From positions 21,693 to 85,692 of the IMG/VR virus record IMGVR_UViG_3300032235_001069: a stretch of DNA of 64,000 nucleotides, one strand, 5' to 3'. The translations under genes and the position numbers were made by a program. The notes below the pieces were generated by a model that saw only the letters and a program-made list of their open reading frames with translations, searched no databases and was not told the DNA's origin. Numbering within the stretch: the first letter of the stretch is position 1; every line of letters starts with the position of its first letter. The DNA comes from a virus. This document shows positions 5,907-55,700 of the stretch, one piece after another.

Positions 5907-5929
5907 TAAATTGAGTGTATTCTGCAATA

Positions 5930-15220: not shown

Positions 15221-15254
15221 ATTAGTTCTTACACTCAAAATTAATCTTATTGTC

Positions 15255-15773
15255 ATGAATATATTTGTATTAGATTCTTGTCCCAAAAAAGCAGCAGAGT
15301 ATAATTGCGACAAACATTTATCAAAAATTGTCGTAGAAATTTCTCAAATGGCCGCCAATTGTTTCGATGTCAATATACTTAAATCTGCTCCACCTAATAT
15401 GCTTGGCCAACCTCGCAAGCATTCTTATTTCAATCATCCTGTATCTAAGTGGATGCGGGAAACAATCGGCAACCTTCTTTGGTCTATCGACCATGCTTTC
15501 GCTCTTGAGCGGGAGCGTATTTATCGCGGATACAATCCACACTTTTCAATACGGTTTATCAATTGGGTTGCTGAGAACTTTGACAAGTCAGTAGTTCCAT
15601 ATGGCGATCAAACAGAATTTGCTGTAGCTATTGCGCCTACAATGCAATGCCGTCAACATCCGTCATTCAATGACGCAAATTCAGTTGACAAATATCGTTT
15701 GTATTATCAATATGATAAACCTTTTGTCACTTGGACAAAACGCAACAAACCTGACTGGTTCACAATCTTATAA
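15255..15773 (+). CDS. Pyrimidine dimer DNA glycosylase-like phage protein
   Basis: A 172-residue protein starting MNIFVLDSCPKKAAEYNCDKHLSKIVVE, with FNHPVSKWMRETIGNLLW and YRLYYQYDKPFVTWTKRNKPDWF at the end. This pattern (CDKH, NHP, W+RE) is shared by a large phage family usually annotated as pyrimidine dimer DNA glycosylase. The annotation comes from distant similarity to T4 DenV and should be held lightly. Confidence 0.7.
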   Translation: MNIFVLDSCPKKAAEYNCDKHLSKIVVEISQMAANCFDVNILKSAPPNMLGQPRKHSYFNHPVSKWMRETIGNLLWSIDHAFALERERIYRGYNPHFSIRFINWVAENFDKSVVPYGDQTEFAVAIAPTMQCRQHPSFNDANSVDKYRLYYQYDKPFVTWTKRNKPDWFTIL

Positions 15774-35210: not shown

Positions 35211-35752
35211 TTGCTGGGGGCATATGGCTCTCCTGTTTCTAGGTTGATGAGGACAACGTCGTCGAGATGTCCTCCGTCTTTTGCGTTCTTGGCATAGGTA
35301 TCAAGCATAAGGCTTGGCGTTACATGTCTTGCATATACATAGATCTTGCCACTTGCAACGTTTCTGATTGCCCACTTGGCGTTCTTTGGTACGCAGAGCC
35401 ACTTGCTGCTGTCGTAGCATCTCTCGACAGGTATTCCCAGCTTCTTCATCCAAGACTTCCAAGTAGGCCCATGCCCCCAACCCTTGTTAACTTCCCAATC
35501 TAAAGCGTGCGCCCATTCGTGTAAAATAGTTTCTTTTGCTTTTTTTAAGAAGTTCGGGCTGTTCTTGTTTATGTGTATTATGTGGGTGGAAAGCTCGATT
35601 CGTTTTGTCTTTCCATTATCAGATCTCCAAGCCCTGCCCATTACAGTTCTAAGCCTTTTGTTCCATTTGATTTCCCACCCTTCTAGGATGGGATACTGGA
35701 GTTTGATCTGAGCAGAGATGTCTTTGAACAATGTATTTACTTCGGCAATCAT
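35198..35752 (-). CDS. SprT-like zinc metallopeptidase
   Basis: A 184-residue protein with ETILHEWAHALDW, the HExxH zinc motif (78-82), and a GHGPTWKSWMKKLG segment providing the third-ligand region typical of SprT/Spartan domains. Known relatives degrade DNA-crosslinked proteins. The start ATG at 35752 follows the previous stop by one base (TAATATG). Confidence 0.8.
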   Translation of the reverse strand: MIAEVNTLFKDISAQIKLQYPILEGWEIKWNKRLRTVMGRAWRSDNGKTKRIELSTHIIHINKNSPNFLKKAKETILHEWAHALDWEVNKGWGHGPTWKSWMKKLGIPVERCYDSSKWLCVPKNAKWAIRNVASGKIYVYARHVTPSLMLDTYAKNAKDGGHLDDVVLINLETGEPYAPSKCKS

Positions 35753-35753
35753 A

Positions 35754-35939
35754 TTAGTCTTCGTTTCTAAATTTAATCTCATCTTGGATGTAGTCAAGCA
35801 AATTTAGGATACCATCCATATGTTCGCGCATTTCATCTGTCCACTCAATTTTCTCATCCATGAGTTTGTAGAGTGTTTGTTTTTGTTTGTCTAACAGAAC
35901 TGGACAAACTGTTATTTCGATGTCGTACAATTTATTCAT
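35754..35939 (-). CDS. Hypothetical protein
   Basis: A 61-residue helical protein, MNKLYDIEITVCPVLLDKQK then EMREHMDGILNLLDYI. Coup-led to the SprT-like gene. ATG 35939 preferred to a TTG start 12 bases upstream. Confidence 0.6.
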   Translation of the reverse strand: MNKLYDIEITVCPVLLDKQKQTLYKLMDEKIEWTDEMREHMDGILNLLDYIQDEIKFRNED

Positions 35940-35958
35940 ATTTTTTAGCAATTTAAAT

Positions 35959-36033
35959 TGGCGATTCTAGCTGGATTCGAACCAGCAATAATTCTTTAGA
36001 AGAGAACTGTGATGTCCATTTCACTATAGAATC
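35959..36033 (-). tRNA. tRNA-Arg(TCT)
   Basis: Acceptor GATTCTA/TAGAATC, anticodon stem GTTCT/AGAAT with loop CTTCTAA, T arm GCTGG-TTCGAAT-CCAGC, encoded CCA. Confidence 0.88.
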
Positions 36034-36074
36034 TTTGTTCACTGGGATAAATTCAAAGTGTAAACACTTGAACT

Positions 36075-36560
36075 ATGGACAAGAGTATTTTAGCAGAGAT
36101 GATAAGTCAAGGATTTTCCACCAGAGAAATTTCGAAAAAAATGAATTGCGGCCAAACAAATGTTATGTATTGGATGCGAAAACATAATTTAAATATTTTA
36201 ACTAAAGTGAAGAGCGAAAAAACTTGTCCAAAATGCAAGCAAATTTTAGATCTTTCTTTTTTTTACCAAAGGAGAGGAAAAATTGGAGGATCAGTTTATT
36301 GCAAAGGCTGCACTAACTCACAAGCAATGGAGAGGCAGAAAAAATTAAAAATACAATGCGTTGAATACAAGGGTGGCTGTTGTCAAGTTTGTAATTATTC
36401 TAAATCTTTATCCGCTTTGGAATTTCATCACTTGAATCCAAGCGAAAAGGAATTTAGTTTATCTAGCAAAAAATCGTTTTCTTTCAACGAGCTGATAAAA
36501 AAGGAACTGGATAAATGCATTTTGCTTTGCGCAAATTGCCATAGGGAACAACATGACTAG
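36075..36560 (+). CDS. HNH endonuclease with N-terminal helix-turn-helix
   Basis: A 161-residue protein. The N-terminal MDKSILAEMISQGFSTREIS with MNCGQTNVMYWM looks like a helix-turn-helix. Then come zinc knuckles (CPKCKQ, CKGCTN, CCQVCNY) and the HNH core ALEFHHLNP...LLCANCHRE. Its C-terminal half is close to the HNH protein at 5930-6274. Antisense to the array, it is probably a free-standing homing gene. Confidence 0.85.
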   Translation: MDKSILAEMISQGFSTREISKKMNCGQTNVMYWMRKHNLNILTKVKSEKTCPKCKQILDLSFFYQRRGKIGGSVYCKGCTNSQAMERQKKLKIQCVEYKGGCCQVCNYSKSLSALEFHHLNPSEKEFSLSSKKSFSFNELIKKELDKCILLCANCHREQHD

Positions 36561-36892
36561 ACTGAGCTATGGGTACTGGAAAGATCAATGCTCTTGCGGT
36601 GATATTCTTCACCATAAACTCTTTCTGTCAAGACAATTTCGACTTTGCCTGACGGATAAACATACACCTCACCATAAGTGCCAAGAAAATAATCGAACTT
36701 TGGATAATGTTCTCTTAGAAAATCAGCAACTGCATCTCCGTAGTCGTCGCCCATCTTGACGCACGCGCCTTCCATATATGCTGCCGCATCAAACCATTCG
36801 AAGATACGGTCTTGAGCAGACCAGTTAAAGATGGCATAGTCTAGCTTACCACTCTTCAGAAACTCAACAAGATCAAGCAATGTCTTTTCCAT
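36557..36892 (-). CDS. Hypothetical protein, possibly truncated
   Basis: A 111-residue protein, MEKTLLDLVEFLKSGKLDYA, with LGTYGEVYVYPSGKVEIVLT. Its stop TAG shares the CTAG palindrome with the stop of the HNH gene, and it lacks the hairpin block that follows other array genes. The HNH insertion may have replaced its 3' end. Confidence 0.6.
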   Translation of the reverse strand: MEKTLLDLVEFLKSGKLDYAIFNWSAQDRIFEWFDAAAYMEGACVKMGDDYGDAVADFLREHYPKFDYFLGTYGEVYVYPSGKVEIVLTERVYGEEYHRKSIDLSSTHSSV

Positions 36893-36929
36893 ATGCGATA
36901 CATGATAGCCAGTGTTAGGGAGAATGCAA
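36893..36929 (-). promoter_or_regulatory. Leaderless promoter
   Basis: TTGCAT, 16 bases, TATCAT, nine bases, ATG at 36892. Confidence 0.65.
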
Positions 36930-36948
36930 CACTTATTTCAAAAAATAT

Positions 36949-37026
36949 TTACGCACTTGTGCGTAATAACACTTGACAGGGAGCCAGGGCTATCCCTGGA
37001 ACGTAACCACCTCATTCTGAGGTGGT
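36949..37026 (-). repeat. Array spacer block 1
   Basis: In plus-strand order: TTACGCAC-TT-GTGCGTAA hairpin, a TTGACA core, CCAGGG-CTAT-CCCTGG palindrome, then ACCACCTC/GAGGTGGT hairpin next to the end of tRNA-Leu. Confidence 0.75.
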
Positions 37027-37108
37027 ACGGGGAGTGGGACTCGAACCCACACGCTCTAACGAGCATCAAATTTTAAGTCTGATGTGGCTGCCATTACACC
37101 ATCCCCGC
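37023..37108 (-). tRNA. tRNA-Leu(TAA)
   Basis: Class II tRNA: acceptor GCGGGGA/TCCCCGT, anticodon loop CTTAAAA, variable arm GCTCGTTAGAGC, T loop TTCGAGT, encoded CCA. Confidence 0.88.
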
Positions 37109-37534
37109 TTTTCTTTTCTTGTTTCTCCAGTTGTCTGTCAAAGCATGACAGTTGCAACATAAGAGTTGAAGATTTTCAAAATTGTTATTGGTTCTATTTC
37201 CATCTACATGGTGAAGCTCCAAAGGGATACTATCACTCAACCATTCACTTTGCAAGCATTTTTCGCATTTGTGGCCTTTTTCATTTATTAAATGAGAACG
37301 AAGATTCTTTGTTCTTTTGTAGGAAGACCAATCTTTAATCCTTTGATCTTTGCTCCAAAGTTGACCAGTGAAATGCGACGTTTCTAAATTTAGTTTAGCA
37401 ATCTTTGTCTTGACTGTATCAAAGTTTCCACCAGCTTCCTTTAGATCCAAAAATCTAAGGACTTCAGAAATGGATTTGCTTTTCTTAACCGCATTAATCA
37501 AATCCTCTTCTGTGTATCGTCTATACTTTCTCAT
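37094..37534 (-). CDS. HNH endonuclease
   Basis: A 146-residue protein with a conserved opening (RRYTEEDLINAVKKSKSISE), then the HNH core: KCEKCLQS, LELHHVDGN, NNNFENLQLLCCNCHALTDN. It is unlike the other two HNH genes and belongs to the larger HNH phage group with an N-terminal DNA-binding segment. Its 3' end overlaps the tRNA-Leu gene by 15 bases. Confidence 0.85.
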   Translation of the reverse strand: MRKYRRYTEEDLINAVKKSKSISEVLRFLDLKEAGGNFDTVKTKIAKLNLETSHFTGQLWSKDQRIKDWSSYKRTKNLRSHLINEKGHKCEKCLQSEWLSDSIPLELHHVDGNRTNNNFENLQLLCCNCHALTDNWRNKKRKAGMV

Positions 37535-37597
37535 GCTTTATTTTACACTAAAAAGGTAGACGAAGAATCAATTTGATTGCGAGACTGCCGAAGAAAG

Positions 37598-37870
37598 TGG
37601 GGGAGGTGGGAATTGAACCCACGACCAAGCGATTATGCTTACTACTATAACTTTCGTTACCAGAATTTCTGTTTGTAGTCTGGACTATGCCTTTACCGTG
37701 GTATTTCTACTTTAGGTAGGTGATTATAGTCTCTACACGTTCCTCTTTCGAGGCTTCGCTCGACGTTGGGATTTTAAACCGTTCATCGAATTTACACCTT
37801 ACTAATTATTCGTTTCCGAATAATCGACCCATTATTAAGTCGCCTGCTCTTACCTCTGAGCTACTCCCCC
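37598..37870 (-). tRNA. tRNA(CAT), Met or Ile2, interrupted by a group I intron
   Basis: The 5' exon (37870-37838) ends GGCGACT and the 3' exon (37637-37598) begins CATAA. Joined they give acceptor GGGGGAG/CTCCCCC, D stem GCTC/GAGC, anticodon stem GGCGA/TCGCT with loop CTCATAA and T arm GTGGG-TTCAATT-CCCAC. The G1:C72 pair excludes an initiator, so it is elongator Met or the CAT tRNA-Ile. CCA is not encoded. Confidence 0.87.
37638..37837 (-). ncRNA. Group I intron (200 nt, no ORF)
   Basis: The exon end CGACT pairs with the internal guide GGTCG through a terminal T:G wobble (P1), and ATG just before the guide pairs with the 3' exon CAT (P10). A GAAA-capped P2-like stem follows. The R-type stretch GTGTAGAGACTATAATC and S-type GGTAAAGGCATAGTCC form P7. 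The intron ends in G. No endonuclease is encoded inside; an HNH gene lies next to it. Confidence 0.85.
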
Positions 37871-37877: not shown

Positions 37878-38264
37878 TTACAATTCAAAAGCGAGAATGT
37901 TATCTGCTGGAAGAAAGTTCAACTCTGCCTCACCTTCATATAAGGAATATCCTAGCACAGTCAAAGCGAAGACGCAAGCATTATCGTAAGAAAAATCTCG
38001 AAAGGAATGAATCTCTACACCATCATCTTTGTCCACGATGTAATAGTCTTTAATCTCATCAGACAAAGATTTAGGTTCTACACGAAAGCCCAAATGTGTA
38101 AGGGCTTGTTCTTCAGCGGTTTCCGCTGAATCTTTGTCAATCATTACTTGTTCCTGAAAGGAAGTATCATCTTCGATTAGTGTGTATGGTTCGTGCATAT
38201 TTATTTCTTTAATGTTAAGCATATTACTACAAGGGTTACGATTAGAGCATCCATAATTAGACAT
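37878..38264 (-). CDS. Hypothetical acidic protein
   Basis: A 128-residue protein overlapping the previous gene by eight bases at the chosen start; MHEPYTLIED is a later start. The C-terminal part (SYDNACVFALTVLGYSLYEG) looks folded. It ends eight bases before the intron-containing tRNA. Confidence 0.6.
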   Translation of the reverse strand: MSNYGCSNRNPCSNMLNIKEINMHEPYTLIEDDTSFQEQVMIDKDSAETAEEQALTHLGFRVEPKSLSDEIKDYYIVDKDDGVEIHSFRDFSYDNACVFALTVLGYSLYEGEAELNFLPADNILAFEL

Positions 38265-38952
38265 GAATTACAAAGCCCGAATTATCTTTTTTTGCTGGTC
38301 CCTTGGCACGCAGTCCCACGATTGCGTTCTTTGGATCAAGGAAGCGGAGATCGTTTTCATCTCCGTCAATGACTTTGAAACCTTCGTGTTCTGTTGGCAA
38401 GGGTTGATCTTTTTTAGTGGAGAAAACAAAAGCTGAATTGTTTCCTTTTGCTAAAGCTGCGAACGATTTAACTTGAGACACTTTAGTCTCTGCGCGTGAA
38501 AAAGTCAAGTGGTAATTTGAAATTGTCAAGTCCAAACGATCAAACAATTTTATGTAATCATAGAACTGCACACCAGAAAAATGCTGGAAAATGTTTTTTC
38601 CCTTGTGGATAATGTCTTCCCATCTGATATCAGAAGTCAAGTTGAGACGAAACACAGCTTGCAAGCTTTTCTTTGCGGCTGATTTGATTCCTGTCTCAAT
38701 TTCTTTGATTAAATTATCCATGAACAAAGCCTGCTCTTCAAAGAAGCTTTTTGTTTTTTCGATTCGCTGTGGCTGAACCATGACACCCATGCCTGCCAAG
38801 TTAAGGCAAGAATCTGTGCAACCTTTTGATCTGCCTTGACAAACTTCATACCCGCTAATGTTAGCGGGTGCAAAGTGAATGCCAAAGGTTTCGTATCCGA
38901 AGGATCTGCCCTTCAGTGTTTTGTAATTAGCAACGGTGAGTATTTTTTGCAT
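38257..38952 (-). CDS. Gp88-like conserved phage protein
   Basis: A 231-residue protein. Near its start it has NISGYEVCQGRSKGCTDSCL and NLAGMGV, then RIEKTKSFFEEQALFMDNL and DIRWEDIIHKG. This pattern (CxxxxxGCxxxCLNxAG, then RIxRTxxFFxD) matches a conserved family of mycobacteriophage gp88-type proteins, function unknown. Its leaderless promoter has a clear TTGCAC. Confidence 0.75.
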   Translation of the reverse strand: MQKILTVANYKTLKGRSFGYETFGIHFAPANISGYEVCQGRSKGCTDSCLNLAGMGVMVQPQRIEKTKSFFEEQALFMDNLIKEIETGIKSAAKKSLQAVFRLNLTSDIRWEDIIHKGKNIFQHFSGVQFYDYIKLFDRLDLTISNYHLTFSRAETKVSQVKSFAALAKGNNSAFVFSTKKDQPLPTEHEGFKVIDGDENDLRFLDPKNAIVGLRAKGPAKKDNSGFVIHV

Positions 38953-38986
38953 GACGTAAGAATATCACTAGCAAGGGTTCGTGCAA
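38953..38986 (-). promoter_or_regulatory. Leaderless promoter
   Basis: TTGCAC, 16 bases, TATTCT, six bases, ATG at 38952. Confidence 0.7.
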
Positions 38987-39005
38987 CAATTATTTCGCAA
39001 AATAT

Positions 39006-39078
39006 TTACGCCTTTAGGCGTAATAGTTCTTGACATCCCAGCCAGGGCTACCCCTGGCCCCCACCCGATGGGTGGGGG
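39006..39078 (-). repeat. Array spacer block 2
   Basis: TTACGCC-TTTA-GGCGTAA hairpin, TAATAGTTCTTGACA core, CCAGGG-CTAC-CCCTGG palindrome, then CCCCCACCC-GAT-GGGTGGGGG hairpin. Confidence 0.8.
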
Positions 39079-39131
39079 TCAGCTTCCCGATAGTGTTGGT
39101 AGTCAGTTAAACAAACCAAAAAACAAACCAA

Positions 39132-39386
39132 CTATCTATTTGGAAGAATGGAATTGTCCAAGATTCTGTCAAGGTAGAACATTCCGAAGTGTGGTTGCTC
39201 CACCTTACCGTTCTTTGCTACTATGTAGAGAGTGACAGCTTCAGGTGGGCAATGGTTAGTTCCACCTTTTGATCCTTTCTTTACGCCAGTACGAACGGTG
39301 TAGGTGTTTGTTTCACCTTTCTTGTTGTGATACTTAATCGAAAAGAACTTTCCGTTTGTTGTTGCGATAATGCGTTTGCCAATCAT
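39132..39386 (-). CDS. DUF2693/WYL_2-like small beta-barrel protein
   Basis: An 84-residue protein with KKGETNTYTVRTGVKKGSKG, the RTGVKKxxKGG hallmark of a phage family with an SH3-like fold. Role unknown; some relatives are thought to bind nucleic acid or protein. Start at ATG 39386, four bases after the previous stop. Confidence 0.7.
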   Translation of the reverse strand: MIGKRIIATTNGKFFSIKYHNKKGETNTYTVRTGVKKGSKGGTNHCPPEAVTLYIVAKNGKVEQPHFGMFYLDRILDNSILPNR

Positions 39387-39390
39387 AATG

Positions 39391-39642
39391 TTATTCCTCG
39401 TCTTCGTCGTCAAAATCTTCGTCCTCGTCGTCCCAATCATCTGGTTCTGTGGTGTTCATCGCAATGGTGGCGAGCAGATGATCGTAGTCTCCGCTTTGCG
39501 CTTCTTCTAGAACCGCACGAACTTCTTCTTGTGACCAGCCTTGGCGAAGCGCATTGCTTCTCCATGTTCCCATGATCACGAATGCATTGCCATCGAGGCC
39601 GACCAACTGCATCTTAACTTTCTTGGTTTTTGTGTTTTGCAT
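39391..39642 (-). CDS. Conserved small phage protein, acidic tail
   Basis: An 83-residue protein with KMQLVGLDGNAFVIMGTWRS and EEAQSGDYDHLLATIAM, then a run of Asp/Glu. The KLVGxDGNAFxIxG...GDYDHLL pattern is a widespread uncharacterised phage family. Confidence 0.68.
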   Translation of the reverse strand: MQNTKTKKVKMQLVGLDGNAFVIMGTWRSNALRQGWSQEEVRAVLEEAQSGDYDHLLATIAMNTTEPDDWDDEDEDFDDEDEE

Positions 39643-39732
39643 GTCGCTTGTATTGTTTTTTGCTTGGTTGTACGACTCGCAACATTCTGTTGCCCCATCG
39701 TAAAGTTTTTTGATAGGTTACTCCATCAACTT

Positions 39733-39975
39733 TTAGTTGTTTCTTTTTGGAGTCCATACTTTGAGCATAGCCTCATCCTTCATAATGTCAATACCGAATC
39801 CTAAAGTCTGGAAAGTATTTCTGAGAGTGTAGGCTTGGAGTTCAAGAATCTTTTTCATTTCGCTAGTTGACATTGCATCGCCAACAGCTTCCTGCGTAGC
39901 CCTGTGGAATGCGTAAAGCATTTCACAGAACTGGTTTACCAACGGGGTCAACTCTTCAATAGTGCTTTTGTTCAT
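39733..39975 (-). CDS. Hypothetical protein
   Basis: An 80-residue helical protein, MNKSTIEELTPLVNQFCEML then SEMKKILELQAYTLRNTFQ. Strong leaderless promoter upstream. No family recognised. Confidence 0.62.
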   Translation of the reverse strand: MNKSTIEELTPLVNQFCEMLYAFHRATQEAVGDAMSTSEMKKILELQAYTLRNTFQTLGFGIDIMKDEAMLKVWTPKRNN

Positions 39976-40009
39976 GTGAGAAGCATATACAGAGCAAACG
40001 AATGCGCAA
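39976..40009 (-). promoter_or_regulatory. Leaderless promoter
   Basis: TTGCGC, 16 bases, TATGCT, six bases (TCTCAC), ATG at 39975. Confidence 0.75.
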
Positions 40010-40027
40010 CATTTATTTCAAAAATAT

Positions 40028-40098
40028 TTACGTCCTTGGACGTAATAGTTGTTGACAGTCCAGCCAGGGGTAGCCCTGGACCCCCGCCTTTCGGCGGG
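40028..40098 (-). repeat. Array spacer block 3
   Basis: TTACGTCC-TT-GGACGTAA hairpin, TAATAGTTGTTGACA core, CCAGGGGTAGCCCTGG palindrome, then CCCGCC-TTTC-GGCGGG hairpin. Confidence 0.8.
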
Positions 40099-40116
40099 AG
40101 CCCATTCGTATGGAAA

Positions 40117-40422
40117 TTAATGTGCGACTACTTCTGCTTCGTCGATTTCTATAGAGAAGTCTCCACCACCAAAGGAGAATTCAAGCTCATTACCCGTAAG
40201 GGAAACTTCTTGAGGAAGCCTGCGATCTGTTTTATGGTTAAGTAGAACGCTGTGATCCATCCCATCTTTCCACCTTTCGAGGTGAACATTAGTGGGAACG
40301 AAGTGGGAGACATGATTCCAGAGAATCAATCTTTCTCCCTTTTTGATTGCTCTCTTGACTCTCTCAACGTGAGCGTGTTTGACTTTGATTGTGATGTTGG
40401 TGTTTCCAATGTTTGTTTGCAT
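40117..40422 (-). CDS. Hypothetical protein
   Basis: A 101-residue protein, MQTNIGNTNITIKVKHAHVE then RAIKKGERLILWNHVSH and an acidic end. It may be a small beta-domain. No family recognised. Single-gene unit with its own promoter and spacer block. Confidence 0.62.
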   Translation of the reverse strand: MQTNIGNTNITIKVKHAHVERVKRAIKKGERLILWNHVSHFVPTNVHLERWKDGMDHSVLLNHKTDRRLPQEVSLTGNELEFSFGGGDFSIEIDEAEVVAH

Positions 40423-40456
40423 GTGAGAAGCATAGCAAAAGCTCTCATGCGTGCAA
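40423..40456 (-). promoter_or_regulatory. Leaderless promoter
   Basis: TTGCAC, 16 bases, TATGCT, six bases (TCTCAC), ATG at 40422. Confidence 0.75.
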
Positions 40457-40475
40457 CAATTTTAATTAAAAAAAA

Positions 40476-40543
40476 TTACGCACCTGTGCGTAATAGTTGT
40501 TGACAGGAAAGCCAGGGCCCTGGACCCCGCCTTGCGGTGGGGT
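40476..40543 (-). repeat. Array spacer block 4
   Basis: TTACGCAC-CT-GTGCGTAA hairpin, TAATAGTTGTTGACA core, shortened palindrome CCAGGGCCCTGG (loop lost), then ACCCCGCC-TTGC-GGTGGGGT hairpin. Confidence 0.8.
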
Positions 40544-40552
40544 CTGGTTCTT

Positions 40553-40762
40553 TTACGCTTGTTTGATTCTCGCCTCTACGAGCATCTCATTGAACTGGTC
40601 AAGCACTTTCTGCTTGTTGCCTCTCAAACCAAACTCCTTTTTGATTTGAGCATATGCGGAACATCCTTTGATCGGATAGATTCCTTTTGTTTCGAGTTTC
40701 AGGGCGCTTGCCAGCATCAGGAGGCGATAAGCGGAGATTTGTTGTGGTGTGTCTAGTGTCAT
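40553..40762 (-). CDS. Conserved small phage protein
   Basis: A 69-residue protein, MTLDTPQQISAYRLLMLASA then ALKLETKGI and KKEFGLRGNKQKVLDQFN. This TPEQIxxxRLxxLxxALKLExKG...FGLxGNK pattern is a common uncharacterised phage family. Start at 40762 gives a TAATATG junction with the previous gene. Confidence 0.7.
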   Translation of the reverse strand: MTLDTPQQISAYRLLMLASALKLETKGIYPIKGCSAYAQIKKEFGLRGNKQKVLDQFNEMLVEARIKQA

Positions 40763-40763
40763 A

Positions 40764-40967
40764 TTAGGTGTAGCATACTGGGTGGATGTCATTCCTGCAA
40801 CCATTATATTTTCTGTTCATCATAATGGAATGGGTGTGCATGACTCTTTTGAGCCTCTGCTTGGATTCTGTCTTGACCTTCTTCAACTTGGAAAGCTCCA
40901 TCTGCAGATAGGTAATCTCATCAATGCTGAGACTTTTTGCGGCTTCAATGATTTGTTTTTTATTCAT
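40764..40967 (-). CDS. Hypothetical small protein
   Basis: A 67-residue basic protein, MNKKQIIEAAKSLSIDEITY then MELSKLKKVKTESKQRLK. Five bases separate it from the previous gene. No family recognised. Confidence 0.58.
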   Translation of the reverse strand: MNKKQIIEAAKSLSIDEITYLQMELSKLKKVKTESKQRLKRVMHTHSIMMNRKYNGCRNDIHPVCYT

Positions 40968-40972
40968 AAGAA

Positions 40973-41308
40973 TTAGCGAAAGACTCTTGTCAAGTGATTA
41001 TTGACACCGTTCTTGAAAAGCTCATAGTCAACGCAGTCAACCGCATCCAACTTGTACCCACCGATATTCCATTCAAACAAAACGTCTGGGCTGGATGGTA
41101 CACGCTTCCATGCGTAGATGGTGGCGACTGTATCATTGGGGAACTTTAAGCGCCATTCGATGTTAACTTTTTCGCTTTCATCGATTGGATTATTATGCTT
41201 GTCAGGCGCACCGAATACAGCAACCAATTGGTCGTATGTGCATGAGATGTAACCTTTGAGCGAGGTTCCGTTGATGAGTGGCGTTCTTCTAACTGTTGTA
41301 GTTGTCAT
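40973..41308 (-). CDS. Conserved phage hypothetical protein
   Basis: A 111-residue protein, NGTSLKGYISCTYDQLVAVF then NIEWRLKFPNDTVATIYAWK and LFEWNIGGY. The LKGYI..TYDxLxxxFGxP...EWxLxF..G..xTIYxWK pattern is shared by many phage proteins of unknown role. Confidence 0.7.
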   Translation of the reverse strand: MTTTTVRRTPLINGTSLKGYISCTYDQLVAVFGAPDKHNNPIDESEKVNIEWRLKFPNDTVATIYAWKRVPSSPDVLFEWNIGGYKLDAVDCVDYELFKNGVNNHLTRVFR

Positions 41309-41343
41309 GGATAGAAAGATAGCACAGGAAAGAGTGCGTGCAA
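41309..41343 (-). promoter_or_regulatory. Leaderless promoter
   Basis: TTGCAC, 16 bases, TATCTT, seven bases, ATG at 41308. Confidence 0.7.
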
Positions 41344-41361
41344 CTTATTTTTCAAAAATAA

Positions 41362-41413
41362 TTACGCCCTTGGGCGTAATAGTGCTTGACAGATCCCCAG
41401 GGCTACCCCTGGG
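41362..41413 (-). repeat. Array spacer block 5
   Basis: TTACGCCC-TT-GGGCGTAA hairpin, TAATAGTGCTTGACA core, CCCAGGG-CTAC-CCCTGGG palindrome. It has no third hairpin: the 3' end of tRNA-Lys takes its place. Confidence 0.78.
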
Positions 41414-41416
41414 CGT

Positions 41417-41491
41417 TGGTGGACAGGATGAGACTCGAACTCATAACCAACGCCTTAAAAGGGCGCTGCTCTACCATTGAGCTACCTGTCC
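41417..41491 (-). tRNA. tRNA-Lys(TTT)
   Basis: Acceptor GGACAGG/CCTGTCC, D stem GCTC/GAGC, anticodon stem GCGCC/GGCGT with loop CTTTTAA, T arm ATGAG-TTCGAGT-CTCAT, encoded CCA. Confidence 0.9.
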
Positions 41492-41504
41492 CTTTGTGCC
41501 AGAG

Positions 41505-41528
41505 CCTCCCCTGCACCCGCAGGGGAGG
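41505..41528 (-). terminator. GC hairpin before tRNA-Lys
   Basis: Ten-base stem CCTCCCCTGC-ACCC-GCAGGGGAGG with no T run, between the upstream operon and tRNA-Lys. Confidence 0.6.
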
Positions 41529-41559
41529 ATGGATGACACAACACACCTAACCACAGAAA

Positions 41560-41868
41560 TTATTTTCTTGCTACCTCAAAGCAGTGAGCCGCATGGAGTT
41601 CCAGATGTTTGCGGATGTCTTTAATCTTTTGCTTGACCTCATCTCTTTGAGAGACTGCCATGTTCCAACTCTCATCACCCTTTGGGTAGTAGTCTCGCTT
41701 GTGGAACTCAACCGCAAAAAACTTTTCAGAGAATTGTTCTAACGCACGAAGTGCATCGAAGTATTGTCCACCTAGCGCTTTACCGCTATTCCCATTCATG
41801 TGGATAAATGGAAAGCAAACAGAAGGATTATCAAGCTGAACTTGTGATTGTGCTGTTTCGGAGATCAT
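41560..41868 (-). CDS. Conserved phage hypothetical protein
   Basis: A 102-residue protein with CFPFIHMNGNSGKALGGQYF and KRDYYPKGDESWNMAVSQRD. This HMNGxSxxxLxxQY...RDYYPxG pattern is a widespread uncharacterised phage family. ATGA overlap with the previous gene. Confidence 0.7.
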   Translation of the reverse strand: MISETAQSQVQLDNPSVCFPFIHMNGNSGKALGGQYFDALRALEQFSEKFFAVEFHKRDYYPKGDESWNMAVSQRDEVKQKIKDIRKHLELHAAHCFEVARK

Positions 41869-42020
41869 TGTTGCAAGTATGTTTGGATTTTTTCTTTTAG
41901 TTCAATGAGGAAGTTTTCTTCCACGTTCAATTCGTATGAGAGCTTATCTCTTAAGTCTGCATCTGTCAAGCAATGTTTGCAGATTTCGAGGGCTTTGGTG
42001 ATGTCTTCTGGTGTTAACAT
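41865..42020 (-). CDS. Hypothetical small protein
   Basis: A 51-residue protein, MLTPEDITKALEICKHCLTD then LSYELNVEENFLIELKEK. It starts with the same MLTxE as the previous gene, at an identical GCRTAATATG junction. No family recognised. Confidence 0.62.
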   Translation of the reverse strand: MLTPEDITKALEICKHCLTDADLRDKLSYELNVEENFLIELKEKIQTYLQQ

Positions 42021-42021
42021 A

Positions 42022-42204
42022 TTATGCGTATTTGGCTTCGTACTCTGCATTGCAGATGACATGATCAAGCCAGATCTGAAACTTCTTGAGATTCCATACT
42101 CCGCTCTTGACCCATTCATAGGCTTGTTCGGAGGTAATGCTCAGATAGCCTTCTCTGTCAGTTGATTTGATGTCGTGTTTGTTCATGCCTTCTAGTGTTA
42201 GCAT
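42022..42204 (-). CDS. Hypothetical small protein
   Basis: A 60-residue protein, MLTLEGMNKHDIKSTDREGY then ITSEQAYEWVKSGVWNLKKF. It starts at a TAATATG junction. No family recognised. Confidence 0.62.
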   Translation of the reverse strand: MLTLEGMNKHDIKSTDREGYLSITSEQAYEWVKSGVWNLKKFQIWLDHVICNAEYEAKYA

Positions 42205-42205
42205 A

Positions 42206-42526
42206 TTATGCACTTTCAATCATGCTCATGAGCATTACCTTTACGTTGACTTCCTGCAAAACAATAAACTTGAGTGTTGAATTAATGCATGAGGTGAGTT
42301 CGACGAATCCATCAGCATAAAGTTTTGCGCCACAATCAAATTTAAACTTTATTTCTGCTCCATCATTGCCACAAAACAAACCAAACTCGTCAAGAGATTC
42401 TGAGTCGTTGTTGTAGTACCAGATTTCTGATCTGCCTTTGTATGCGAGTCCCCAAGAACTTTCGAGGATGTTTCGCAGGTTTGTGGCATTGATTGGTTTT
42501 GGTTCTGCTTTCAATGGGTTGTTCAT
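42206..42526 (-). CDS. Hypothetical protein
   Basis: A 106-residue protein, NLRNILESSWGLAYKGRSEI then LFCGNDGAEIKFKFDCG. First gene of a four-gene unit with a leaderless promoter. No family recognised. Confidence 0.62.
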   Translation of the reverse strand: MNNPLKAEPKPINATNLRNILESSWGLAYKGRSEIWYYNNDSESLDEFGLFCGNDGAEIKFKFDCGAKLYADGFVELTSCINSTLKFIVLQEVNVKVMLMSMIESA

Positions 42527-42561
42527 GTTTAGAACTCTATCATGGGTTTTGATTCGCGCAA
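42527..42561 (-). promoter_or_regulatory. Leaderless promoter
   Basis: TTGCGC, 16 bases, TAGAGT, seven bases, ATG at 42526. Confidence 0.65.
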
Positions 42562-42579
42562 CATTTATTTATCAAAAAA

Positions 42580-42654
42580 TTACGCACTTAGTGCGTAATA
42601 GTTCTTGACAGTCGAGCCAGGGGTAGCCCTGGCCCCAACCCTTTCGGGTTGAGG
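42580..42654 (-). repeat. Array spacer block 6
   Basis: TTACGCACTTAGTGCGTAA hairpin, TAATAGTTCTTGACA core, CCAGGGGTAGCCCTGG palindrome, then CCCCAACCC-TTTC-GGGTTGAGG hairpin. Confidence 0.82.
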
Positions 42655-42662
42655 CGGTTATG

Positions 42663-42938
42663 CTAGTCTTCCAATTCGTAGGGTCGAATCTCGCGATCAA
42701 AAGCGTGCCACTCGCTGACCTCTTTTTCCTCCTCTTCTTCTTCGTCCCCACCGAAGAGCGAGTCCCACTCTTCGGCGGTTATGCCTGACTTAATGAACTC
42801 CCGCTCGTCGGGAGTTAAGTTAGGGAACGCATCTTGCAGCAGAGCGCCTGCTGCATAGAGGTCGAGCTGCGTCTGCGTGATGGGAAGATCAAGCGTGTTG
42901 ACTTCCCCCGATACCCACGATGTGCGTGTGATGTTCAT
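42663..42938 (-). CDS. Conserved phage hypothetical protein
   Basis: A 91-residue protein, MNITRTSWVSGEVNTLDLPI then AFPNLTPDEREFIKSGITAE and EWDSLFG, with an acidic insert. The NITRTSxxSGxxxTLDLPIT...LTPxEREFIxxGxTxEEWD pattern is one of the most common uncharacterised phage/plasmid families. Confidence 0.75.
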   Translation of the reverse strand: MNITRTSWVSGEVNTLDLPITQTQLDLYAAGALLQDAFPNLTPDEREFIKSGITAEEWDSLFGGDEEEEEEKEVSEWHAFDREIRPYELED

Positions 42939-42947
42939 GTTTTTTTA

Positions 42948-43130
42948 TTATTTGTTATTGACTTGACGGATAGAAGAAACTGGTGGCCATTCGGGCTTTT
43001 CGCCATTGATCAATCTGATCATGTACAAACGCTCTTCGATTAAACACTCAATTGCGCTTTCTAGCTGGCGCAACGAATCGAGGTCGCTGAAGTTCTGCTT
43101 AATGAGGTCGATTAGAGGGTTCACGTTCAT
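42948..43130 (-). CDS. Hypothetical protein, paralogue of the one at 43919
   Basis: A 60-residue protein. QNFSDLDSLRQLESAIECLI parallels QGYNDPDSLAKIKAAIECMM at the C-terminus of the protein at 43919-44164, suggesting duplication inside the array. Function unknown. Confidence 0.65.
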   Translation of the reverse strand: MNVNPLIDLIKQNFSDLDSLRQLESAIECLIEERLYMIRLINGEKPEWPPVSSIRQVNNK

Positions 43131-43164
43131 GGAAGAATCATCTCACACTTTTGTTTTTTAACAA
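43131..43164 (-). promoter_or_regulatory. Leaderless promoter
   Basis: TTGTTA, 16 bases, GATGAT, six bases, ATG at 43130. Confidence 0.6.
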
Positions 43165-43183
43165 TAAAAAAGAGCAAAAAAAT

Positions 43184-43258
43184 TTACGTTACAAGCGTAA
43201 TAGTTGTTGACAGCCAGTCCAGGGGTAGCCCTGGCCTCCAACCCATTCGGGTTGAGGG
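43184..43258 (-). repeat. Array spacer block 7
   Basis: TTACGTT-ACA-AGCGTAA hairpin (one G:T pair), TAATAGTTGTTGACA core, CCAGGGGTAGCCCTGG palindrome, then a CCTCCAACCC/GGGTTGAGGG hairpin. Confidence 0.8.
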
Positions 43259-43270
43259 CTTTAGCTCTGT

Positions 43271-43531
43271 CTACTTAGCCAAGTCAAAGAATGGGCCGCT
43301 GAACTGGATCTGCCGTTCGTGCGCAAGTGCTTGCGCCCGTTCACGTTCCTCTTCGTCTGCCACCTGCTGATTGAGGATATGCGCTTCCTGCAACATTGCG
43401 CTGCACTCATGCGCAAGCATGAAAAGCAATGTGTGTTGCTCGCAAGTGAGGTTAAGTGGGTCGAGCCCCGCAACCATTTTGCGGGACTCAATGAGGACTG
43501 CGTTTTGCATGAGTTGAAGTGCGTTTTGCAT
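43271..43531 (-). CDS. Hypothetical protein, paralogue of the one at 44300
   Basis: An 86-residue protein. NAVLIESRKMVAGLDPLNLT then EQHTLLFMLAHECSAMLQEA aligns with TAVLIHVRACVRDLNCASLT then EEHIALLHQIASFACANAQE in the 44300 protein. Eleven bases separate it from the previous gene, so it shares that promoter. Confidence 0.65.
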   Translation of the reverse strand: MQNALQLMQNAVLIESRKMVAGLDPLNLTCEQHTLLFMLAHECSAMLQEAHILNQQVADEEERERAQALAHERQIQFSGPFFDLAK

Positions 43532-43542
43532 AGGATGTATGA

Positions 43543-43752
43543 TTAGCGGTTCTGGAGCTGTTCGATTCTGTCTGCGATATGTTCTTTGGCCTCTGGCACA
43601 AAAGTTGCCATGCCTATCAAGAAACCTTCGAGGTGGCCAACCATGCACGCATCGACAAGTTTCTCGCCATGCCTTTTCGCGATGTCCGCCCTAGTGGTGG
43701 CCATGAAGGTTTCGATCATCTGAACTGCGTCTGTGTACCTGTTGTTTTCCAT
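43543..43752 (-). CDS. Hypothetical protein, paralogue of the one at 45604
   Basis: A 69-residue protein, MENNRYTDAVQMIETFMATT then KLVDACMVGHLEGFLIGMAT and IADRIEQLQNR. The 45604 protein has the matching ENFVAC..., ETCTIAHLQSTLQILAS and KARIEKMEG. Start at ATG 43752, set by its promoter. Confidence 0.65.
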   Translation of the reverse strand: MENNRYTDAVQMIETFMATTRADIAKRHGEKLVDACMVGHLEGFLIGMATFVPEAKEHIADRIEQLQNR

Positions 43753-43786
43753 GCCCAAACAATAGCATAAAAAGAAAAGACCGCAA
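43753..43786 (-). promoter_or_regulatory. Leaderless promoter
   Basis: TTGCGG, 16 bases, TATTGT, six bases, ATG at 43752. Confidence 0.7.
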
Positions 43787-43829
43787 CACTCTTTTTTCAT
43801 GCCAAGCGTGAAAAAAAGTTCATAAAAAT

Positions 43830-43905
43830 TTTCACTTAATAGCGTAATAGTTCTTGACACCCAGCCCAGGGGTAGCCCTGGACCCCAACCCTTTCGGGTT
43901 GAGGT
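43830..43905 (-). repeat. Array spacer block 8
   Basis: Decayed first hairpin (TTCACTTAATAGCGTAA), TAATAGTTCTTGACA core, CCAGGGGTAGCCCTGG palindrome, then CCCCAACCC-TTTC-GGGTTGAGG hairpin. Confidence 0.78.
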
Positions 43906-43918
43906 GTTTGCGCTTATG

Positions 43919-44164
43919 CTATTCTTCCATCATGCACTCGATGGCTGCTTTAATCTTTGCTAGTGAATCTGGGTCATTATATCCTTGACGGATTTGCTGA
44001 ATGATTCCTTCGCATGATTGCGTATTCTCGACGAACGTGCATAACTCCTTGAAGTCTGGGTCGCTTGGAAGCGACAGCGCCCAATTCAGACTCTGCTGAA
44101 TTGCGCGAAGTGCGTTTAGATCCCTGTCTTCGTAAGTATCGGTGGTTTCAGGATAGTCGTACAT
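43919..44164 (-). CDS. Hypothetical protein, paralogue of the one at 42948
   Basis: An 81-residue protein, MYDYPETTDTYEDRDLNALR then IIQQIRQGYNDPDSLAKIK and AAIECMMEE. A longer frame begins with TTG inside the promoter; ATG 44164 is preferred. Confidence 0.65.
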   Translation of the reverse strand: MYDYPETTDTYEDRDLNALRAIQQSLNWALSLPSDPDFKELCTFVENTQSCEGIIQQIRQGYNDPDSLAKIKAAIECMMEE

Positions 44165-44202
44165 AACTGAGAGAATCATATACAAGAAAGTGTGCGGTTC
44201 AA
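44165..44202 (-). promoter_or_regulatory. Near-leaderless promoter
   Basis: TTGAAC, 16 bases, TATGAT, ten bases, ATG at 44164. Confidence 0.65.
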
Positions 44203-44223
44203 CATAAAAATTTTGCTTTTGAT

Positions 44224-44287
44224 GCGTAATAGTTCTTGACAGCCAGTCCAGGGGTAGCCCTGGCCCCCAACCCTTTCGGGTTGAGGG
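44224..44287 (-). repeat. Array spacer block 9
   Basis: First hairpin decayed to GCGTAA only, TAATAGTTCTTGACA core, CCAGGGGTAGCCCTGG palindrome, then CCCCCAACCC-TTTC-GGGTTGAGGG hairpin. Confidence 0.78.
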
Positions 44288-44299
44288 TTTTGCGTATGC

Positions 44300-44539
44300 T
44301 TACTTACCGCATGCGGCAAGTGCATCTTGCGCGTACCGCTCGCGCTCCTCAAACCATTCGACGGAGGCGACATCCGCCTCCTGCGTGAAACGCGCCTCCT
44401 GCGCGTTCGCGCATGCGAAGGATGCAATTTGATGGAGGAGCGCGATATGCTCCTCCGTCAAGGAGGCGCAATTGAGGTCGCGCACGCAGGCGCGAACGTG
44501 GATGAGGACCGCTGTGAGATTTGACGATGTATTAACCAT
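44300..44539 (-). CDS. Hypothetical protein, paralogue of the one at 43271
   Basis: A 79-residue, GC-rich gene. Shares the AVLI...LT.EH..LL...A...QEA frame with the protein at 43271 (see there). Start at ATG 44539, six bases after a TACTGT box. Confidence 0.65.
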   Translation of the reverse strand: MVNTSSNLTAVLIHVRACVRDLNCASLTEEHIALLHQIASFACANAQEARFTQEADVASVEWFEERERYAQDALAACGK

Positions 44540-44574
44540 GCGGACACAGTACAAAAAGAATGCTGTGATTGGAA
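44540..44574 (-). promoter_or_regulatory. Leaderless promoter
   Basis: TTCCAA, 17 bases, TACTGT, six bases, ATG at 44539. Confidence 0.5.
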
Positions 44575-44601
44575 GGATTATTTTGCAAAAAATTTCTCAC
44601 T

Positions 44602-44701
44602 CTATGCTTAATAGTTCTTGACAGGGTGGCCAGGGCTCCCCCTGGGCAAATTTTGCCTAGTGAGTTTTTGCCGCTTTTGGGACTAGGCACTTTTTGCCTA
44701 C
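44602..44701 (-). repeat. Array spacer block 10 fused to two CTAGGC palindromes
   Basis: TAATAGTTCTTGACA core and CCAGGG-CTCC-CCCTGG, then instead of a third hairpin GGCAAATTTTGCCTAG (44645-44660) and CTAGGCACTTTTTGCCTA (44683-44700), the boxes of the iteron array at 33 kb. Confidence 0.75.
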
Positions 44702-51844: not shown

Positions 51845-52754
51845 CTGTTTAGAGTGTGAGCAGGAATTTGATTCTGAGAGATCCCTTCATGCGCATATTA
51901 AAAAACACGAAATATATCTGCACGATTATTTCGTTAAACATTTTTCACGCAGAAATTTATTAACAAATGAATTATTACCTTTTAAAAATAAAGAAAGTTA
52001 TTTTGATTATGATTTTGACAATATTGATCAACTTTATAAGTGGTGTTCAGTGGGTAACCAACAAACTGTTAAAAATTATATACTAGATAAGCTTGCTACC
52101 AGAATTAAAAGTCGTAATTTAAATTTTGCACCGAATGAAATTGAATTATATACGAGCATGCTTCCAAGCATATCGATATATAAAAAATTCTTTAAGAGTT
52201 ATACGTTTGCATGCGAGGAAATTGGCGCAAAGCCAATGTTCAATGCAAAAATTCCAGATGCATTTTGGAAAGATGATTCAATTAAAGAATTAACTATTTT
52301 AACTGATACTAGAGAACAAGAACCTTTGTTTTTTGAAAATCAAATAGTCAGAAAACTTGATGTTGGCGACTATGCGATACAGGATCATTTTGATTATACA
52401 TTTGTCGATAGAAAGTCTGAGGGAGATTTCAAATCTACTTTAAGTAAAGATAATTTTTTAAGATTTAAAAGAGAGTTGGATAGATGCAGGGCAATGGATT
52501 GCTATTTATTTGTGGTAGTCGAATCTGATTTAAAAAAATTAGAGCAATCTAATAAAAGATCTGCGCACAAAGCAAACATGAAATATATTTATCACAATAT
52601 GCGAGTATTGCAACATGAATATAGAGATTGTTGTCAATTTGTTTTTTCTGGCAATAGAAAAAATAGCGAAGACTTAATTCCAAGAATCTTACTTCACGGA
52701 AAAAAAATTTGGAATGTTGATTTACAATATTTCATTAACGAAAAACAATTATGA
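51834..52754 (+). CDS. ERCC4-type nuclease with C2H2 zinc finger
   Basis: A 306-residue protein. It starts with a C2H2 finger (FNCLECEQEF with H21 and H25). The C-terminal half has LTILTDTREQEPL, LDVGDYAI, FVDRKSEGDF and RFKRELDRC, the ERKxxxD-type core of ERCC4/XPF nucleases. It overlaps both neighbours and sits just before the terminase. Confidence 0.8.
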   Translation: MSFNCLECEQEFDSERSLHAHIKKHEIYLHDYFVKHFSRRNLLTNELLPFKNKESYFDYDFDNIDQLYKWCSVGNQQTVKNYILDKLATRIKSRNLNFAPNEIELYTSMLPSISIYKKFFKSYTFACEEIGAKPMFNAKIPDAFWKDDSIKELTILTDTREQEPLFFENQIVRKLDVGDYAIQDHFDYTFVDRKSEGDFKSTLSKDNFLRFKRELDRCRAMDCYLFVVVESDLKKLEQSNKRSAHKANMKYIYHNMRVLQHEYRDCCQFVFSGNRKNSEDLIPRILLHGKKIWNVDLQYFINEKQL

Positions 52755-55700
52755 GTTGGGAATTAGGAAATCAAAAGAGCAGAAATAGGGATCGAGACAT
52801 TAATAAACTAATTCTTGAGAAGGATGGCTTTCTGGACGAGAGGGAAGCTAAGATTTTATTGTATAAATTTCTTAGAGAGAATCCTTCGTTCACTTCCGAG
52901 CTTTTAACTGGCGTCGAATTATTTCCGTTTCAGCACATGGCAATTAAAGCGATGTTTCAGACTGATTATTTTTTAGGAATCTGGAGTCGCGGATTAAGTA
53001 AGTGTAGTCACTATAACTCTTTAGTATGGACCAATCGGGGATTGATTAAAATAGGAGATATTAATGTTGGAGATAAAGTTCAATCACTAAACTCTTTTAA
53101 TAAAGTGCTTGGAAAAACCGTAAACCCTATTCAGAAGACTTATAAAATAACAACAAAATCTGGCGCTATTTCTGAAGGGTTAGATTATCATCGCACTATG
53201 GTCTTGACTAAAGATCTCAATCTCGATTGGAAATATAATAAGGATATTTGCCTAGATGATTATATTGTTTTAAAGCGAGGATGCGATATAGATTTATTAG
53301 AAAGAGATATTTTTGAAGGGTTCAAGTTTAATAATGAAATACAAAACAATAACAACAAACCTAAAAAAATAATTTTAAATAAAAAAGATATTAAGGATTG
53401 GTATTACTTTTTTGGATTGCTTATTGGAGATGGTTGCATTTTAGAAAAGGGAGTATCTATTTCTTCTGAGGATTATGAAACGTTGGACTTTTTAACATAT
53501 TTTTCTAAAAAAATTGGATTGAAAGTTTCAGTTTCAACGAAAACAGCTTCTCACTGCAGAGACATTAGAATATATTCAAAAGAGCTTATTTACTTTTTAA
53601 AGTTTATTGGGTTTGGTAATGAAAAAGCATTTGAAAAAACTATTCCTTCCGCATTAACCAACAATTCTCGCGCAAATTTATCTTATCTTTTGAAAGGTTT
53701 GTTTGATACGGATGGATATTGTTCCGTGCAAAAAAAAGACAAAAAGGGAACTAATGTAAAAATAGGTTTCACTAGTTCTAGCGAAGGGTTAATTGATCAA
53801 GTGCGAAATCTTAGTCTTCAGTTAGGAATTTCTTTTCGTAAAAGCGTTACCTTCAAAGGTAGTAGGTCTAAATTTCCAAATGGGCGAGAATATGATTGTA
53901 AAAAAGCTTGGAGTTTGATCGCTTGCAGTCAAAAGGAAGCTCGAATATTTTCCAAGCAAATTAATTTTAATATTCGGCATAAATCTGACAAGTTATTAAG
54001 CATATCAGATCAATTAATTCAAAATGAATCATTTTGTGATTATATTCCTTATGTAGGCGAAGTATTGAAAAAGCATTTTGGAAAAAAAAGTATTGTTATC
54101 GCTAATGACAATAATTACAAGCTGAACTTTCGCAAAAATTCTAGTAGAAGATTACTTGGTGAAATACTTGAGACTGGCTATATCAAAGGAGAACTTTACG
54201 ATAAATTAACAAATCTTATTCGCGAAGATGTCATCTTTGAAAAGGTCGCTTCCATAGATGAGTCTAATGCTGTAACTGTTGACATTCAAGTTGAAAAGGA
54301 ATGCTGTTATGTCGCAGACGGCATCTTAAATCATAACTCATTTACGACTGGAGTCTTCGCAGTATTGGATGCCATCATGCATCAAGGCGTTCATATTGGC
54401 ATCATATCTAAATCATTTCGTCAGGCAAAGATGATTTTTAGAAAGATTGAAGAGATTTCTAAGACAGTTAAAGCCTCAATGTTTGCAGAGGCTATTACGA
54501 GGGTTTCTAGAGGCAATGACGAATGGTTCATGGAGATTGGCAGATCTCGTATTACTGCACTTCCATTGGGTGATGGCGAAAAGCTTCGCGGTTTTCGTTT
54601 TCAAAGAATGATTATTGATGAATTTTTATTGATGCCAGAAAAGATTTTTACAGAAGTTATAACTCCATTCTTGGCGGTTGTAGAAAATCCTACCGAAAGG
54701 CAAAACATTTACAACATGGAAAGCAAAATGATTGCCGAAGGAAAAATGACTGAGGACGAAAGAACAATTTGGCCCAACAATAAAATTATTGGCCTGTCAT
54801 CGGCAAGTTATAAATTTGAATATCTTTATAAGATATATCAAGAATACGAAAGCTTAATAAAATCTGAAGATACTAAAAATTTAGCGCATAGAGTAATAAT
54901 GCATTTCAGTTATGACTGCGCACCTAGCCAATTGTATGATGCCGCAGCTTTACAGCAAGCAAAAGCGACCTTAAGTGAATCTGCATTTCAAAGAGAGTAT
55001 GGAGCAGTGTTTACTGATGATAGTAGTGGCTACTTTAAAGTCAGTAAAATGCTCGCTTGTACCATAAAAGATGGAGAAGGACAATCCGTAGAAATTGCAG
55101 GAGAAGCTGGAGCTAAATATATCCTAGCATTCGACCCCTCATGGTCAGAATCAGAAGGTTCTGATGATTTCGCCATGCAAGTTATCAAATTAAATACTGA
55201 AAAAAATACTGGCACAGTTGTTCATAGTTATGCCGTAGCTGGAACTACATTAAAAGATCATATATTTTATTTTCATTACTTAATAACTCATTTTAATATT
55301 GTTTGCATGGTTGGTGACTACAACGGAGGCGTTCAGTTTTTAAATTCCGCAAACGAAAGTGAGTTGTTTAAAAATTCAAAAATTAAAATCGAAACTTTTG
55401 ATGCTGATTTCGATAATCTGCCAGATTACCACTCTGCAATTAGAGACTGCAAAAATCAATACAACATTTCTCAAAGAAGAATTTGCCATTTAAGAAAACC
55501 TTCTTCTGGTTGGATTAGATATGCCAATGAATTGCTCCAAGCAGACTTTGATCATAAAAAGATATTCTTTGCTGGCGCAGCAATGAATGACGACTATCAA
55601 TCACAAAGGAATAAGAGCATTCCGATAGATAATATTAAATTCTTACGTGTGGAAGATGAAAGTCAAGGCTCTGGCGCAAAGATGATTGATTTTATTGAAC

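Follow-up and report, generated by a model that had tools for sequence, protein, structure and literature searches.

A group I intron in the anticodon loop of a phage tRNA(CAU) gene, beside an HNH gene associated with tRNA-Leu

An interrupted tRNA(CAU) gene

The 85,692-base IMG/VR virus record IMGVR_UViG_3300032235_001069 comes from a virus that infects bacteria, and the window analysed here is a 64,000-nt stretch of it (positions 21,693 to 85,692 of the record). A search with the portal-like protein of the phage matched no isolate. A 73-nt tRNA gene occupies positions 37598–37870 of the window, on the minus strand, and is split by a 200-nt intron between tRNA positions 33 and 34:

37838–37870, minus strand: 5′ exon of tRNA-Ile2(CAU), 33 nt, ending ...GGCGACU (ARAGORN with its intron option, -i; intronless orthologs in the related loci L006 and L007)
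37638–37837, minus strand: group I intron, 200 nt, starting UAAUAAUGGGUCG and ending GUAGUAAG, with a terminal G (ARAGORN -i, RF00028, covariation)
37598–37637, minus strand: 3′ exon of tRNA-Ile2(CAU), 40 nt, starting CAUAAUCGC (ARAGORN -i; L006 ortholog; match to E. coli tRNA-Ile)

ARAGORN run with the intron option reports one tRNA(cat) at this place, on the minus strand, with a 200-nt intron at 33–34 and exons meeting as cgact^cataa. The coordinates and splice points given in the preliminary description, which left the strand unstated, are thereby right to the base. Default ARAGORN finds no match at 37598–37870, nor does an Rfam search at the gathering threshold at the same locus; these misses are therefore not evidence of absence. 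Base 73 of the tRNA lies at 37598, and CCA is absent from the gene.

Joined, the exons form the perfect cloverleaf that had been claimed for the spliced product, with anticodon CAU. ARAGORN draws this cloverleaf, and the same anticodon loop is found in L006 and L007, two near relatives reached through the GP88-like gene (38257–38952) beside the tRNA. In both of them tRNA(CAU) and tRNA-Leu(UAA) are adjacent, with neither an intron nor an HNH gene, and the loop of the uninterrupted tRNA is the exact predicted ligated sequence, CUCAUAA. The junction CUU^AUAA, which would give the anticodon UAU, was rejected on the evidence of these empty sites and because the intron would then end in C, not in G.

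The interrupted gene is best read as tRNA-Ile2. The nearest E. coli gene to the spliced tRNA is an annotated tRNA-Ile (91% identity over 58 nt), and an elongator Met identity was rejected on this ground. The other CAU tRNA of the window, at 5261, has an initiator-like look. Across 20 long ORFs of the window, AUA accounts for 20% of the codons for isoleucine, so that a tRNA-Ile2 would find use.

Fold of the intron and group I membership

The search with the Rfam group I model that the preliminary description had proposed as a check gave a two-sided answer. A focused cmscan of 451 bases matched RF00028 at 37660–37846 (E=9e-8), but the score of 36.3 bits stays below the gathering score of 50, which is a curated search cutoff and no biological defining feature. 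The same model found no match in the whole 85,692-base record, so this route is insensitive here. Because the threshold was missed, the structure was tested directly. Unconstrained folding already yields P2, P4, P5, P6a, P7, P8, P9.1 and P9.2; a full structure comprising P1 to P9.2 and P10 was drawn from the window sequence and then scored on 26 related phage introns. Its main elements are:

37825–37842, minus strand: P1, exon CGACU paired with intron GGUCG, with a U.G pair at the 5′ splice site (sequence; covariation set)
37805–37824, minus strand: P2, 8 bp, GAAA loop (folding; compensatory changes in all 8 pairs)
37683–37731, minus strand: P7 (GACUAU/AUAGUC), enclosing P3′ and P8; catalytic core with the guanosine site (RF00028, covariation)
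37641–37679, minus strand: P9, P9.1 and P9.2, the last with a GAAA loop (folding, covariation)

Compensatory changes, with both sides altered, occur in 43 of the 62 pairs. The double-change cells number 284, as against 103 ± 8 after shuffling, and the covariation score is 0.437 as against 0.158 ± 0.008, a value that none of 500 shuffles reached. These double changes are stronger evidence than the percentage of cells paired (87% observed, 70% shuffled), which on its own is biased since the structure was taken from one of the 26 sequences. When the partners are slid by 1–3 columns, pairing falls to 33–40%. The P7 strands GACUA/UAGUC pair in 26 of 26 sequences, although four of the six P7 core pairs are invariant and neutral as evidence.

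The splice sites also behave as group I sites. The U.G pair at the 5′ splice site is kept in 24 of 25 sequences, and the last base of the intron is G. An AUG adjoining the P1 guide can pair with the CAU of the 3′ exon to form P10, and the P10 pair beside the splice site follows the first base of the exon: with C it is G-C, with A mostly U-A. The proposal of a group I intron with recognizable P1, P7 and P10 is thus upheld by the RF00028 match, by covariation and by a P10 that changes with the exon. The paired core from P3 to P9, with the guanosine site in P7, is present (RF00028, covariation). P5abc is absent and P5 is minimal, with only 2 bp, and P10 has only 3 bp. Neither an ORF nor an endonuclease gene lies within the intron. 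We take its core motifs to be the same as those of the Azoarcus-type intron core, and it probably belongs to subgroup IC3. Since L006 and L007 hold an uninterrupted tRNA at the same place and the helices covary, comparative analysis confirms a group I intron and not a chance resemblance.

HNH genes and tRNA genes beside the intron

Two HNH genes and two further tRNA genes follow the interrupted gene:

37094–37534, minus strand: HNH1, predicted HNH endonuclease of 146 aa (phrog_10822, E=3.7e-36; locations of homologs)
37023–37108, minus strand: tRNA-Leu(UAA), without intron, the likely target of HNH1 (default ARAGORN, Rfam; locations of HNH1 homologs)
36075–36560, plus strand: HNH2, predicted HNH endonuclease of 161 aa, adjoining tRNA-Arg(UCU) (locations of homologs)
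35959–36033, minus strand: tRNA-Arg(UCU) (default ARAGORN, Rfam)

Comparison with L006 delimits a mosaic segment of about 2.1 kb (35700–37830), strongly unlike L006, with borders at tRNA genes and HNH genes inside. Upstream of the tRNA the two sequences are 91–97% identical. The divergent segment starts at tRNA-Ile2; from there to about 35.7 kb only parts can be aligned, at about 58–88%, and beyond that point identity is back up to 88–97%. This stretch contains the intron, HNH1, tRNA-Leu, HNH2 and tRNA-Arg, and we infer that the whole cassette was swapped, as homing would cause.

The HNH gene that had been noticed close to the tRNA is HNH1, which starts 63 nt beyond the 3′ end of tRNA-Ile2. 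At its other end it overlaps tRNA-Leu(UAA) by 15 nt, with its stop codon inside the tRNA gene. Its score against Pfam HNH_3 (22.4 bits) is just under the cutoff of 24.8, and the residues of the HNH motif (C90, C93, H109, N121, C126, C129 and H130, comprising the C..C pairs and the H-N-H region) are invariant. No sequence relative was found among solved structures. Among the viral loci that had been selected for an intron and have an HNH1 homolog, 13 of 21 carry it within the intron of the tRNA or a short way downstream. Homologs were then fetched by protein alone, which removes the intron selection. Of the best 80, 76 have a tRNA gene at a distance of 300 nt or less, and this is tRNA-Leu in practically every case, although the search alignment came partly from intron-linked members and may favour such kin; random segments of the same loci lie near a tRNA in 33% of cases. 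Seventeen of these 80 sit within an intron of tRNA-Leu. Where tRNA-Leu is intronless, 29 homologs follow closely on its 3′ side, and 19 adjoin it on the 5′ side or overlap it. Isolates show the same arrangement: Rhodococcus phage Francesca has an HNH1-type gene 38 nt after tRNA-Leu(taa), and Gordonia phage GodonK has one between tRNA-Leu and tRNA-Glu. We conclude from these locations that HNH1 represents a tRNA-Leu-associated family of predicted homing endonucleases. Its likely target is tRNA-Leu, given the 76 of 80 homologs at that gene and the stop codon inside tRNA-Leu(UAA).

What HNH1 means for the intron is less clear-cut. It had been suggested as the mobility partner of the intron, and it may indeed carry the Ile intron along by co-conversion, but the family is tied to tRNA-Leu and the partnership is unproven. 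A first alternative, which we consider evenly poised, is that HNH1, as a free-standing homing endonuclease, belongs to tRNA-Leu and is unrelated to the Ile2 intron, the intron being inherited vertically or gained through recombination of tRNA cassettes. The almost exclusive location of the homologs at tRNA-Leu and the position of the HNH1 stop codon agree with this, as does the fact that among loci L013–L113 no homolog was found inside, or within 300 nt downstream of, an intron-bearing CAU-33 tRNA. However, HNH1 fills the very gap that separates the intron-bearing gene from tRNA-Leu, and intron and HNH1 are missing as a unit from L006 and L007. Moreover, the Ile2 and Leu loops share GACUNAWAAUC, and one enzyme could conceivably cut both.

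A second alternative has HNH1 target the Ile2 insertion site itself and so drive collaborative homing of the intron. The 63-nt spacing, the relatives of HNH1 that lie within intron-bearing tRNA-Leu genes or directly behind their 3′ ends, and the precedent of collaborative homing by a free-standing endonuclease whose gene adjoins a phage intron (PMC2988022, PMC10448857) speak in its favour; the attachment of the family to tRNA-Leu, not to Ile2 introns, makes it rather doubtful. At most, HNH1 would have an indirect or collaborative role for the Ile2 intron, by proximity or through the shared loop motif.

HNH2 shows a comparable attachment: a tRNA gene, mostly one for Asn(GUU) or Arg(UCU), is found no more than 300 nt away from 45 of its 56 IMG/VR homologs. 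A third HNH gene (5915–6274, plus strand), 40% identical to HNH2, lies between tRNA-Asn and tRNA-Thr. Other mobile elements of the window are a gene for a GIY-YIG homing endonuclease (14381–15313, minus strand) and a T4-type terminase large subunit gene (52751–55945, plus strand) split by an intein with a LAGLIDADG endonuclease domain. An intergenic repeat of about 89 nt is present in at least seven copies in 38978–44654 (for example 38978–39066, 40000–40088 and 42553–42641) and is common to L006 and L007. It includes a TTGACA motif and two hairpins, TTACGC..GCGTAA and GCCAGGG..CCCTGGC; read on the minus strand, as the nearby genes are, the first of these hairpins leads into a run of T and looks terminator-like.

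Distribution and kinship of the intron

Scanning IMG/VR with one core pattern returned 61 loci, mostly in tRNA genes, and a second scan with the window's own 3′ splice site as pattern returned 43; together they yield about 80 group I introns within tRNA genes. A long exact exon–exon pattern, too strict for the purpose, had no match in IMG/VR. On viral contigs, some of which may be host DNA, 39 introns stand at position 33/34 of a CAU tRNA, a count that includes many near-copies and relies on splice sites corrected by rule, some automatic calls (L032, L067) being wrong by eye. A further 18 stand at Leu(UAA)-34/35 and 11 at CAU-36/37, with few at Leu-33/34, Lys-34/35 and Asn-35/36. Applied to genomes of bacteria, a scan like the second one gave at least 117 stretches, and at least 93 bacterial contigs have an intron at CAU-33/34. 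The description of such introns as rare in phages holds for cultured isolates, among which the tRNA-Leu of Agrobacterium phage Atu_ph07 was the only clear case found, but not for uncultured phages, where dozens of IMG/VR contigs and also records of huge phages carry tRNA introns. Group I introns in tRNA genes thus appear to be common in uncultured phages; they have been overlooked because standard tRNA finders skip interrupted genes.

Several further loci came to light in the survey. Introns at 33/34 of CAU tRNAs (L114–L230) are frequent in metagenome-assembled genomes of Omnitrophota and Patescibacteria (fMet-like) and of Accumulibacter relatives (Ile2). One viral contig (L061) has a tRNA-Asn(GUU) with an intron at 35/36, a site unseen elsewhere in the survey. 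Shewanella phages 1/4 and 1/40 (L004 and L005, 1192–1909) have two or three consecutive group I matches beside an HNH gene, after the annotated tape measure gene.

The introns nearest to that of the window are all on viral contigs: L024 (82% identity, same site), L037 (83%, Leu-33/34) and L019 (83%, Leu-34/35). A tree was built from 129 non-identical introns shorter than 330 nt, 19 of them viral CAU-33 introns. The window intron falls, apart from bacterial introns, within an all-viral clade of 16 rows with support of 100/99, in a tree whose bootstraps did not converge. This clade mixes CAU-33, Leu-33, Leu-34, Lys-34 and Asn-35 introns from four kinds of tRNA, the Asn member being on a long branch. 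Its composition supports, but does not prove, movement of the phage introns among tRNA genes with similar anticodon loops (Ile2, Leu, Lys and perhaps Asn).

These comparisons also bear on whether the element is alive. The low Rfam score and the short P5 and P10 could be taken to mean that the intron has decayed, splicing is lost and the tRNA gene is dead. This seems improbable to us, since all helices of the catalytic core are intact, the exons give a perfect cloverleaf, and the P5 loops of L024 and L066 are equally short. Although the locus comes from a single metagenomic contig, an assembly artefact or a random insertion into the tRNA gene is hardly credible, for an intron of this type occupies this site in at least 93 contigs of bacteria and in 39 further viral contigs, and its helices covary besides.

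Proposed mechanism

Our main reading, to which we give a probability of nearly nine in ten, is that a compact group I intron of the kind known from bacterial tRNA genes, with no ORF of its own, splits a phage tRNA-Ile2(CAU) gene after U33, and that this intron would be self-splicing and would have spread by co-conversion. In the folded pre-tRNA, exon CGACU would pair with the intron guide GGUCG, and a guanosine bound in P7 would attack the bond between U and the intron. The freed 5′ exon would then attack after the terminal G, so that the intron RNA cuts itself out and the anticodon loop, CUCAUAA, is left whole. Presumably the host then converts C34 to lysidine, whereupon the tRNA would read AUA. 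Spread would most likely occur by co-conversion when a tRNA-targeting HNH enzyme encoded nearby, such as HNH1 at tRNA-Leu, cleaves an allele without the interruption. This mobility step is the weakest part of the explanation, because HNH1 points to tRNA-Leu, not to tRNA-Ile2.

On a wider scale, phage tRNA clusters may be a shared habitat, in which group I introns jump between like anticodon loops (Ile2, Leu, Lys, Asn) and tRNA-specialised HNH families (HNH1 for Leu, HNH2 for Arg/Asn) settle, both jointly driving turnover of the tRNA repertoire; we give this picture even odds. The tRNA-bound HNH families offer a testable route for the gain and swapping of phage tRNA genes.

Comparison with known systems

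Group I introns are known in bacterial tRNA-Arg genes. They are also known in bacterial tRNA-Leu, fMet and Ile2 genes (PMC4033280, PMC8450103), those of tRNA-Ile2(CAU) occurring in Azoarcus, Acidovorax, Burkholderia and others (PMC4033280, PMC8450103, PMC6274277). A 2014 review placed all phage introns then known in protein genes, despite the many phage tRNA genes (PMC3984707). A 2019 paper described phage tRNA introns as previously unreported; it was the first to notice them, in Lak phages, and left them unclassified (PMC6784885). In a search of open-access literature, we found no description of phage tRNA group I introns and none of a tRNA-Leu-bound HNH family.

Azoarcus-type introns share with the window intron a tRNA-Ile2 host gene and a small ORF-less ribozyme. 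However, they follow the anticodon (CAU ends the 5′ exon, 36/37), whereas the window intron precedes it (33/34); and they are bacterial, whereas the window intron is in a phage and groups with phage introns. The bacterial CAU-33/34 introns (Accumulibacter-type in Ile2; Omnitrophota and Patescibacteria in fMet-like tRNAs) have the same insertion site and P1 scheme but belong to a sequence clade other than the phage clade of the window intron. The phage tRNA-Leu(UAA) introns of Atu_ph07, of 735-kb and 595-kb phage records and of IMG/VR contigs are close in the ribozyme body, the nearest being 77–83% identical to the window intron; they differ in their insertion site, 34/35 of tRNA-Leu, and several of them enclose a gene of the HNH1 type. 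Lak megaphages likewise have introns in tRNA genes, called enigmatic and given no group I assignment in the text consulted (PMC6784885). As for mobility, T4 SegB and collaborative homing provide precedents for HNH1, in that a free-standing endonuclease encoded in a region of tRNA genes, or next to an intron, spreads the DNA around it (PMC2988022, PMC10448857), but SegB is a GIY-YIG enzyme, whereas HNH1 and HNH2 are HNH proteins with an activity predicted from sequence. Set against these systems, the window intron is a known kind of element in an under-reported setting, the tRNA genes of phages.
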